Below, one piece after another: positions 8,896 through 14,620 of a stretch of 64,000 nt of DNA (position 1 is the stretch's first letter; every line of letters starts with the position of its first letter). The notes below the pieces were generated by a model that saw only the letters and a program-made list of their open reading frames with translations, was not told where the DNA came from and made no database searches. The stretch is from Xylanimonas ulmi (lineage in GTDB: Bacteria > Actinomycetota > Actinomycetes > Actinomycetales > Cellulomonadaceae), in the NCBI RefSeq assembly GCF_004216535.1, contig NZ_SGWX01000001.1, positions 558,001-622,000 on the forward strand. The letters are read 5' to 3'. The position numbers and the translations under genes are program-made.

Positions 8896-10443
8896 ATGAA
8901 TCGCATCGAAGGCTCCTACACGGGGGTGCTGCGCGCGTTCCGCAGCCCCATGCTCGCGCTGCTGCACAAGCGCGACGCGCCGCTGGTGGTCGCGCTGCTG
9001 TCGAGCGTGTTCCGCCCCGACCGCGCGGTGGTGCAGGTCGCCGACGCGCACACCGAGATCGCCGACGCGATCGCCCAGCTGCGCGCGGCCGGATACGACG
9101 ACCTGCCCGACCGCCCGGCGCGCGAGCTGTGCCGATGGTGGGTCGAGGCGGGCTGGCTGGTGCGCCAGGCCGACGACGCCCGCGACGCCGGCGCGCCCGC
9201 GGCGGGACGGGGCGAGGGCGGGGAGACCTACCGGCTGTCCGCGCACGCGGTCGGCGCCCTGGACGTCGCGGGGCGCGCCGGGGGAGGGCACGCTCGGGTG
9301 ACGCGCTCGCGCGTGCTCACGCTGCTGGAGGCCGTCGAGCGGCTGGCCGACGACGCCAACCCCGACGCGCTCGCGCGCATCGCCCGGCTGACGCGCGAGA
9401 TCGAGGTGCGCGAGACCGAGCGTGCGCGGCTCGAGCGCGACGGCGTGGTTGAGCCGGTCGACGACGAGCAGCTGCTCGAGGCGGCCGAGAACGTGCTGGC
9501 GCTCGTGCGCGAGCTGCCCGCGGACTTCGCGCGCGTCGCCGAGTCGATCCGGTCGATCCAGCGCGAGACGGTCACGGCCCTGCGGCAGGACGAGCGTCCC
9601 ACCGGCGAGGTGCTGCGCGACTACCTGGACCGCGCCGAGCACCTCATGGACGCGACCGCGGAGGGTCGCGCGTTCGCCGGCGCCCGGCGTCTGCTCGACG
9701 ACCCGCAGCGCCTGGACCAGCTCGCCGACTGCCTCGACCTCATCGTGCGGCACCCGTTCGCGTCCCGGCTGCCGCAGCGGCAGCGGGCCGAGCTGCACGC
9801 CATCACACAGCGCATCGAGCAGGGCTTCGTCGACGTGCTCACGGCGCAGCGGCAGGCGTCGCGCGTCATCACGACGCAGGTGCGCCACCACGATCCGCTG
9901 CGCGACCGGCAGGTCGACGACCTGTTGCGCGACGTCATCGCGGGGCTCGGGGCGTGGATGCCGACGACGCGGCGCGCGCAGCCCGTCGACCCGCTGCGCC
10001 GCCTGCCGCGCGCCGGCGTCGGGCGGCTGCGCACGACGCTCGCGGACCTGCGCCCGGCCGACGGCCCGCAGCCGCTCGCGGAGTGGGACGACGACGGCGA
10101 CGAGCCGTCGCTGGAGCACGCGCAGGCGTGGGGCGGGCCGCGCTACCCGCAGCTCGCGGCGCTGCTCGCGCAGGCGGACGCCGACGGCGGCCCGGTGGAC
10201 GTCGCCGCGGTGTTCTCGGGCGCCGACGACGGGCTGCGCCGCCCCGTCGACCTCGTGGGCCTGCTGGAGCTCGGCGCGCGCCATGGGCTGGTCGAGCGCG
10301 ACGAGGTCGCCGTCGTCGAGGCCGTGCGCCCCGACGGCACCCGGCGGCGGCTCGCGTTCGAGGGGGTCGCGCTGACCCGCGGGCCCGAGCCGAGTGGCGC
10401 CGACCAGGGCGAACACGACGATCACACCGAAGGGGACCAATGA
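8896..10443 (+). CDS. JetA/MksF-like kleisin (DUF3375)
   Basis: 515-residue protein matching the DUF3375 family, the kleisin-like subunit of bacterial Wadjet (JetA) and MksBEF complexes. The N-terminus ([20 protein letters not shown] then [11 protein letters not shown]) is the winged-helix segment typical of the family; a long helical middle (about 140-350) with [17 protein letters not shown] heptads follows, then a C-terminal part containing charged loops. It would bridge the two heads of the SMC dimer encoded two genes downstream and bind the JetB/MksE subunit. The stop overlaps the next start as ATGA, so the three genes are one translationally coupled unit. The start ATG has only a weak ribosome site. 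Subfamily (Wadjet versus chromosomal Mks) cannot be settled from sequence alone. Confidence 0.85.
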
Positions 10444-11171
10444 CCGACGTCGACGCCGAGGTGGGCGCCGAGCAGGACGGGTTCATCGAGCCCGTCGCGA
10501 TGGAGTCCGACCCGGTCGAGCTGTTCGCCGGAGACACCGGCACGCTCGACCCGGCCGCCCGGGTCGTGCTCGTGGACCTGCTGCGCCGCCGCCACCTGTC
10601 GGCAGAGCGCACGCCCGAGCGGTGGAGGGCGCTGCTGGAGCATCAGACGGTCATCGAGTCCCGGCTGCACGACTTGTTCGTCACGCTCGTGGTCGACCGC
10701 GACCGCGGCATCGCCTACAAGCGGCAGGTGCGCACGGGCGAGGTCGACATCCCGATCCTGCTGCGCGACGAGGCGTACACCCGTGTCGAGACGGTGCTGC
10801 TGGTCCAGCTGCGCACGCTGCACCAGCAGGAGTCCCGCGCGGGGCAGACGGCGGCGCGCGTCGACGCGGAGGAGCTTGAGCAGTGGGTGCTCAGTTATCT
10901 CGACCCCGCCGAGACGAACCGCGCGCTGCGCCAGCGCGAGGTGCGCGCCGCGATCGCCAAGCTCGTGACCGAGGGCTTCCTCGTGGAGGAGGCGCCCGGG
11001 CGCTACCGCGTCACCGCCTTGGTGGAGGTGGTGCTGCCGATCGACAAGCTCGCCGAGCTGGCCGCGTGGCTGCGCGCCGGGGGAGTCTCGCCCGACGGCC
11101 CCGGCCCCGACGGGCTCGGCGTCGTCGCAGCCGGCGGCGATGGCGACGATGACGAGGAGGACGACGAATGA
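10440..11171 (+). CDS. JetB/MksE-like subunit (DUF4194)
   Basis: 243-residue protein of the DUF4194 family, the MukE-like winged-helix subunit of Wadjet/Mks SMC complexes. Supporting features are its position between the kleisin and SMC genes, the segment [20 protein letters not shown] followed by [18 protein letters not shown], and the run [19 protein letters not shown] that is characteristic of the family. An acidic, disordered tail ([10 protein letters not shown]) ends the protein. It overlaps both neighbours by 4 bases (ATGA on each side). Likely job: binds the kleisin and DNA, regulating loop extrusion by the SMC motor. Confidence 0.85.
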
Positions 11172-14100: not shown

Positions 14101-14620
14101 CGCCCGCATGGCGCGCCTCATCGACCGCCTGCGGCCGGGCGCCCCCGACCGCGCCGACCTCATCGACGTGCGCCGCCACGTGCGGCTGTCGGCCGAGAAG
14201 GTCGACCTGGCCGGCGCGCACGTCGCCCTGTACGACCACATCGGTGAGAAGTCGGGCGGCGAGTCCCAAGAGCTCGTCGCGTTCATCGTCGGCGCCGCGC
14301 TGCGCTACCAGCTCGGCGACGCGGGAGCCGAGCGGCCCCGCTACGCGCCCGTCCTGCTCGACGAGGCCCTCATCAAGGCCGACGCGCAGTTCTCGGGCCG
14401 GGCCGTCGGCGCCTGGCGCGGGCTCGGCTTCCAGCTCGTGGTGGGCGCGCCCAACGACAAGGTCAGCGCCCTGGAGCCGCACGTCGACGCCTCGTACGTG
14501 GTGACCAAGGACGCCTCGGGGCGCTCGCGGGCGCGCGCCGTCGTGGGCCTGGCCGACGAGGACGGCCACCGCGCGGCGGTCACGTCGGGCGCCGCGGGCC
14601 CGCCCGCCGCCGCGCGCTGA
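11168..14620 (+). CDS. JetC/MksB-like SMC ATPase
   Basis: 1150-residue SMC-type ATPase, the motor of a MukBEF-like complex. Walker [10 protein letters not shown] lies at about 50-58 after a head beta-sheet ([12 protein letters not shown]). Two long coiled-coil arms (about 310-480 and 690-900) flank a hinge-like region near 500-640. The C-terminal head has the ABC signature SGGESQ (about 1029) and Walker B VLLDEA followed by LIKAD (about 1062), as in the JetC/MksB group. A clear GAGGAGG ribosome site sits 7 bases before the ATG, inside the upstream gene. glgP begins 146 bases downstream and leuS ends just before the operon, so the fourth subunit, the JetD/MksG TOPRIM nuclease, is not encoded here. 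Confidence 0.9.

Follow-up and report, generated by a model that had tools for sequence, protein, structure and literature searches.

A JetABC operon without JetD beside leuS in Xylanimonas ulmi, and apparently repeated loss of the Wadjet nuclease among its relatives

The jetABC operon of Xylanimonas ulmi raises the question of what a Wadjet-type SMC motor is kept for when JetD (MksG), the subunit that cuts, is absent. A review finds it paradoxical that one type of SMC motor serves both chromosome upkeep and immunity, and it proposes Wadjet as the origin of MukBEF and probably of MksBEF (PMC10586767). A first-pass annotation of this DNA had offered three readings, namely a chromosome-organising Mks condensin, a Wadjet that lost its cutter, or a Wadjet that uses a nuclease in trans. 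Our analysis supports them in part, and an origin by loss of the cutter is the best backed.

The jetABC operon and the search for JetD

The window analysed here is a stretch of 64,000 nucleotides from the Xylanimonas ulmi genome, and the part of interest contains the following features:

5869..8874, + strand: leuS, leucyl-tRNA synthetase, the housekeeping gene upstream of jetA (5869 marks the beginning of the match)
8896..10443, + strand: jetA (mksF), kleisin, DUF3375, 515 aa (Pfam, PADLOC, solved-structure chain)
10440..11171, + strand: jetB (mksE), KITE subunit, DUF4194, 243 aa (Pfam, PADLOC, solved-structure chain)
11168..14620, + strand: jetC (mksB), SMC ATPase, 1150 aa (PADLOC, solved-structure chain, motifs)
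14621..14765, no strand: jetC-glgP gap of 145 bases, the position of jetD in relatives, without a JetD remnant
14766..17237, + strand: glgP, glycogen phosphorylase, housekeeping, GTG start, downstream neighbour

The coordinates of the open reading frames confirm the earlier statement that jetA and jetB, and likewise jetB and jetC, share four bases. The 21 bases given for the spacing between leuS, which ends at 8874, and jetA are also right, whereas the gap to glgP had been put at 146 bases and is one base shorter. Pfam assigns JetA to DUF3375 (E 3.1e-114) and JetB to DUF4194 (E 3.7e-37), and in JetC it finds AAA_29 and SbcC_Walker_B domains and a weak MukB N-terminal match. The PADLOC models for type I Wadjet cover nearly the whole of all three proteins (JetA1, 638 bits; JetB1, 318 bits; JetC1, 1554 bits over JetC residues 1-1131). 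Among chains of known structure, JetA matches 8dk1_A, the JetA chain of a solved Wadjet structure, with E 2.5e-13, JetC matches the JetC chain 8dk2_C over residues 19-1114 with E 6e-43, and JetB matches the JetB chain 8as8_C with only E 2.5e-4. The Walker A motif (from residue 50), the signature (from 1027) and Walker B (from 1060) of JetC are all intact, just as had been read from the sequence at the outset. A canonical Smc was considered for JetC and ruled out (40 bits against an NCBIfam cut-off of 567). The C-terminal tail of JetB is strongly acidic (window 11100-11171), and that of JetC is Ala/Pro-rich (window 14560-14620). Scans of the gap 14621..14765 for terminator-like and sigma-70-like sites were empty, which carries little weight in G+C-rich DNA. 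The operon lies at about 0.567 Mb and dnaA at 3.216 Mb, about 1.3 Mb apart if the contig is circular.

The genome searched for JetD is a single contig of 3.97 Mb that is 99.98% complete. Profile searches of the whole genome, proposed with the first-pass annotation as a check, retrieved no jetD: JetD_C gave no match at E<=0.001 (control positive in C. glutamicum), DUF3322 none at E<=10 (control above the cut-off in C. glutamicum), and an 11-row JetD profile built here none at E<=10 and again none at E<=1. Applied to eight genomes, the 11-row profile was positive in G090, G067 and G140 (no E above 9e-141), which are themselves rows of the profile and form a control that proves that the search works, not its reach to distant JetDs; it found none in five JetD-less members of the genus, Xylanimonas ulmi among them. 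The independent JetD_C profile gave the same split of three and five. No JetD remnant was found in the window, the gap included; a weak antisense tblastn match (E 0.041) lies inside glgP on the opposite strand and was judged to be due to chance.

Because all these profile searches were empty, a recognisable JetD acting in trans is, on the evidence of sequence, excluded for the Xylanimonas ulmi genome, and with it a jetD that co-evolves elsewhere in this genome; of the in-trans reading, a nuclease of unrelated type stays compatible. The earlier claim that the operon lacks a JetD/MksG nuclease is borne out both by the 145-base gap and genome-wide. With the type I Wadjet systems (MksBEFG, EptABCD) the locus shares the JetA1, JetB1 and JetC1 matches, the likeness to solved-structure chains and the order jetA-jetB-jetC in one operon, and it differs from them, whose restriction of plasmids requires the full set of four subunits, in that the JetD/MksG Toprim nuclease is missing from the operon and, to the reach of the profiles, from the genome. 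With MksF, MksE and MksB together, no MksG and intact SMC ATPase motifs, the locus has the composition of MksBEF or of the JetD-less Wadjet group.

Occurrence of JetABC with and without JetD

Counts of genomes and places establish that JetD-less JetABC is common across the order and the rule in our sample of Cellulomonadaceae; Xylanimonas ulmi is not a one-off. Among 200 family genomes, 156 have a JetA match and 44 have no JetA (DUF3375) match; a JetD_C match occurs in 31, all within the 156, so that 125 have JetA without a JetD_C match. The JetD_C counts of this sample and of the order sample below include fragments, and in the family G176 carries a remnant and G192 an internal stop. The match in G192 (G192:C15:52791-53216), with an internal TGA stop, is on a different contig from the listed JetA of that genome. 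In the order sample of 248 genomes, 101 match JetA and 53 match JetD_C. Outside the family, 44 of 89 JetA places in this sample are linked to JetD and 45 are not, linkage meaning that a JetD_C match follows on the strand of JetA at a distance of up to 9 kb, and places close to the end of a contig being entered as not linked; this tally leaves out two JetA matches below the family cut-off (G604, G584) and the matches of the own family. Linkage differs sharply by family (14/14 in f75, 2/20 in f79). A phylum sample yielded JetA matches in only 10 of 296 genomes; of its 11 JetA places beyond the family, 7 are followed by JetD_C at a distance of 5.1-6.3 kb. According to a survey with a different sampling, Wadjet is found in 42% of actinobacterial genomes (PMC10482375).

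For the analysis by locus we assembled 140 family stretches, 139 of them with jetC, which together with the window gave 140 scored loci: in 24 a full-length jetD follows jetC directly, 2 keep a remnant and 103 have none, a score given only where the sequence continued for 1.5 kb or more beyond jetC, while 11 are cut too short to be decided. Twelve lower-scoring JetA places and six JetD places of the family were left out of this set; because of the latter the count per locus understates JetD, and the genome counts of 156 and 31 are unaffected. Among the best 80 matches listed, 45 relatives fall outside the family, including Actinomadura, Nocardia, Actinoplanes and others (29 with JetD, 15 without, 1 with a remnant). 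A plasmid-borne origin was rejected, as the closest of 14 plasmid records that match JetC has only 40% identity.

In 24 loci from eight genera (g1, g4, g12, g17, g18, g21, g24, g25) leuS adjoins jetA upstream, and the gene order jetA-jetB-jetC of the window is that of the JetD-bearing relatives. The check for a leuS-jetABC-glgP arrangement in related genomes was positive: glgP lies 3' of jetABC in JetD-less loci of g1, g4, g18 and g21, and it lies 3' of jetABCD in L064 and L177. The locus beside leuS is largely vertically inherited, since for these 24 loci the tree of leuS and that of JetC have 12 supported splits in common, of 16 and 18 (mean 0.2 and maximum 3 in shuffles). Of 105 JetD-less or remnant loci, 63 have the gene after jetC on the opposite strand, and 39 have a co-directional gene no more than 400 bases away; by our crude gene calls this co-directional gene is glgP in genera with the leuS-glgP arrangement and varies between the other genera. 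Neighbour clustering identified no candidate replacement for JetD, that is, no co-directional gene other than glgP that follows jetC in more than one genus. Read from the sequence by eye, kinase-like and luciferase-like genes recur after jetC only within g20, and a Fic-like gene directly follows jetC in L109 and L111 (g20), where the sister L110 has jetD.

Several genomes contain more than one set. Eight genomes of g7, which includes Promicromonospora, and g14, which includes Myceligenerans, each encode two different JetD-less JetABC sets (L139 and L189 in G006, L134 and L191 in G127, L151 and L183 in G097, L150 and L186 in G031, L169 and L194 in G111, L171 and L193 in G105, L174 and L188 in G077, L153 and L195 in G068). 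Six family genomes combine a JetD-less core JetABC with a second, divergent JetABCD elsewhere (L163/L071 in G144, L184/L078 in G103, L173/L080 in G151, L156/L092 in G197, L138/L079 in G064, L170/L087 in G025). Finally, L070 (G114:C154) encodes a full-length JetD at 1727-2941 without an adjoining jetC; G114 is a draft genome, 79% complete, with its JetABC on another contig, and this JetD is possibly a moved or split-off one or a binning error. In view of the second JetABCD sets and the lone JetD, JetD in trans is possible in these genomes, and in the six with a second set so is sharing or redundancy of JetD.

Probable loss of jetD and retention of jetABC

Comparison of the loci points to an origin of the three-gene operon, with very high probability, by loss of JetD from an ancestral jetABCD. 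In the same genus, Xylanimonas pachnodae (formerly Xylanimicrobium; L066/L203) has leuS-jetABCD with jetD after jetC, and L177 has the complete arrangement leuS-jetABCD-glgP. The clade of Xylanimonas ulmi in the JetC tree comprises 90 rows, in 11 scattered ones of which JetD is present; JetC of Xylanimonas ulmi does not lie within a clade that always carries JetD, a placement that the first-pass annotation had named as evidence against its view. JetD-bearing and JetD-less sisters are interleaved in the JetABC tree of 139 rows, which requires a minimum of 22 switches between the two states. On the assumption that JetD was never regained the number of losses is 40, a figure inflated by weak forks in trees that were calculated in 'quick' mode or with FastTree without mixture models. 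The nuclease seems to have been lost many times among sister species.

The opposite polarity, a three-gene form that is ancestral at the locus and gained JetD several times, can draw on the fact that 22 changes on an unrooted tree do not separate gain from loss, on deep leuS-locus branches of the family without JetD (g12, g17, g24, g25 and most of g21) and on L070, where JetD lies away from jetC. We nevertheless consider it very improbable. For 24 JetD-bearing loci the tree of JetD largely agrees with that of JetC, with 11 supported splits in common, of 16 and 17 (mean 0.16 and maximum 2 in shuffles), and one row, L110, placed differently; in all 24 scored JetD-bearing family loci jetD directly follows jetC; and, among the best matches listed, the 29 of 45 relatives outside the family that combine this type of JetC with JetD also speak for an ancestral four-gene operon. 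Moreover, 4 of 125 JetD-less stretches retain a scar of jetD beside jetC, namely L108 and L137 in the family, L272 (Actinomadura sp. 6K520) and L278 (Sphaerisporangium rufum). JetD matches in L254, L255, L256 and L266 were rejected as artefacts; the L265 JetD query included the jetC end. The direction of change that we infer is repeated loss. Relatives that carry jetD at this leuS locus, largely concordant trees and scars in other species support the description of the operon as a Wadjet that lost its cutter, as far as its origin is concerned.

In a second alternative the loss of JetD is recent and JetABC is a decaying leftover that is about to disappear. Losses are frequent and many lie near the tips, one JetD-less locus in a draft genome (L122) has a truncated jetC, and 44 of the 200 family genomes have no DUF3375 match. 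Against this, all three genes are full length and uninterrupted in 103 of 105 JetD-less or remnant family loci, the second exception, L166, having a jetC that ends at a run of N. For each gene, dN/dS was 0.00-0.24 in 19 hand-picked pairs of close JetD-less sisters, which speaks of purifying selection in these relatives. In 16 sister contrasts the JetD-less branch was the longer one in 4, with a median ratio of 0.85 (p 0.08 by sign test and 0.35 by Wilcoxon test), that is, neither acceleration or relaxation nor a significant slowdown is apparent; L247, which like L242 had stops from merged coordinates and was entered with X, is among the 16. In the JetC alignment, each of the 103 rows that are JetD-less or have a remnant retains intact Walker A, signature and Walker B motifs. 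Many losses near the tips leave little time for decay to become visible, and long-term retention is backed by a few older JetD-less clades. These comprise a clade of 16 rows in which JetABC is intact throughout, clades of 18 rows (3 undecidable) and 5 rows and, outside the clade of Xylanimonas ulmi, a group of 17 rows (g8, g11, g19, g23) and the 13-row second-locus group of g7 and g14 (12 scored without JetD, one cut short). Decay is, in our judgement, very improbable, and with high probability JetABC has a function that does not depend on JetD and is kept by selection.

The sequences of JetABC with and without JetD were also compared column by column. Positions whose conservation is 95% or higher in rows with JetD are kept in rows without it at 97% for JetA, 95% for JetB and 98% for JetC. 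No convergent change after loss of JetD was detected in the three proteins across 15 pairs and 1,785 columns; the best column reached 5:0 on the JetD-less side against 0:5 on the JetD side, which is no signal. JetABC without JetD looks the same as with it, and no new function is therefore marked in the sequence. For JetB, the review cited above reports an N-terminal IFDR motif as JetD contact (PMC10586767). In the clade of Xylanimonas ulmi, JetB has an LFAGD[ST]GTL-like stretch near the N terminus, at most a tentative counterpart of IFDR, with and without JetD, and its loss after loss of JetD was not seen; one JetD-bearing group is without this stretch.

JetD itself behaves differently. The JetD/JetC path ratio has a median of 1.85 in the core clade (55 pairs, range 1.1-4.1) and of 0.83 in other JetD-bearing loci (66 pairs, range 0.7-1.4), the pairs not being independent. 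Measured against JetC, the JetD of L066, L064, L110, L128, L133 and others thus evolves at about double the rate seen in those other loci, which would suit an optional part or an arms race. Of the Toprim residues that we take to be catalytic (E243, D286, D288 and D311 in L091 numbering), E243, D286 and D288, invariant elsewhere, are unchanged in 12 of 12 core-clade JetD rows, and D311 is changed in L131.

A proposed motor without its nuclease

Probably, then, the operon beside leuS encodes a nuclease-independent motor of the MukBEF/MksBEF kind, derived from a type I Wadjet by loss of jetD. From the ancestral jetABCD operon, loss of jetD would have left the motor JetABC (MksFEB). JetA, JetB and JetC would still form a MukBEF-like dimer of dimers that entraps DNA, and with ATP this complex would extrude loops; without JetD the end point would be the organisation of DNA instead of the cleavage of plasmids. 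The most likely form of this would be an MksBEF-like compaction or segregation of the chromosome in support of Smc-ScpAB, and ScpA is encoded in the Xylanimonas ulmi genome. By analogy, we give chromosome organisation an even chance of being the function of JetABC: conservation and near-core distribution fit the chromosome-organising Mks condensin of the first-pass annotation, whose chromosomal role would follow by analogy. Against the analogy counts that MksBEFG of C. glutamicum, the relative that has been studied in an actinobacterium, is reported to act on plasmids and to take no part in folding the chromosome (PMC7083940), though this complex has MksG.

A close parallel in composition is MksBEF of Pseudomonas aeruginosa, likewise a three-subunit, MukBEF-like SMC complex beside Smc-ScpAB. 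The difference lies in the repeated loss, at one locus and between sister species, that we describe. MukBEF replaces Smc-ScpAB in its hosts. With MukBEF of Escherichia coli the link is the weak MukB N-terminal match of JetC, which matches JetC far better than MukB; a further difference is the presence of ScpA in Xylanimonas ulmi.

JetABC could also still serve defence against plasmids or phages, either with an unrelated nuclease encoded elsewhere or by restricting through compaction or silencing without cutting, much as Smc5/6 compacts or silences viral DNA. That the sequence of JetABC is indistinguishable from that of JetD-bearing JetABC is in keeping with this, as is the reported action on plasmids of the nearest complexes of tested function (PMC7083940, PMC10123090). 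The genome, however, has no recognisable JetD, and no consistent partner gene follows jetC in the 105 JetD-less or remnant loci as far as crude gene calls tell. The operon was correctly placed among housekeeping genes from the start, with leuS upstream and glgP downstream, and vertical, near-core inheritance beside leuS is unlike that of a defence island. We therefore regard continued defence as unlikely and retain the nuclease-independent motor as the preferred reading.

JetD-less complexes of the Wadjet group are already known, and it is their recurrent origin by loss that is of interest. The literature searched, which covered few subscription journals, contained no description of repeated JetD loss and no paper on Wadjet in Cellulomonas. 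The case also carries a warning, since JetA, JetB and JetC score very high on the Wadjet models of a defence database though the cutting subunit is absent. The step of nuclease loss, apparently repeated among sister species, provides matched JetD-bearing and JetD-less pairs and with them an unusually clean natural experiment, in which it is directly testable whether JetABC acts on the chromosome and whether JetD is needed. For Bacillota a mutual exclusion has been reported (PMC12287153) that would lead one to expect small plasmids to be more numerous in JetD-less species than in their JetD-bearing sisters. The careful preservation of JetABC without the nuclease suggests that it now has another job. 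More tentatively, and with somewhat less than even confidence, we propose that in this family the job for which JetABC is selected is independent of JetD even where JetD remains; JetABC would then have turned from an anti-plasmid machine into a housekeeping SMC complex of near-core distribution, and JetD would be an optional, fast-evolving component that has been shed repeatedly.
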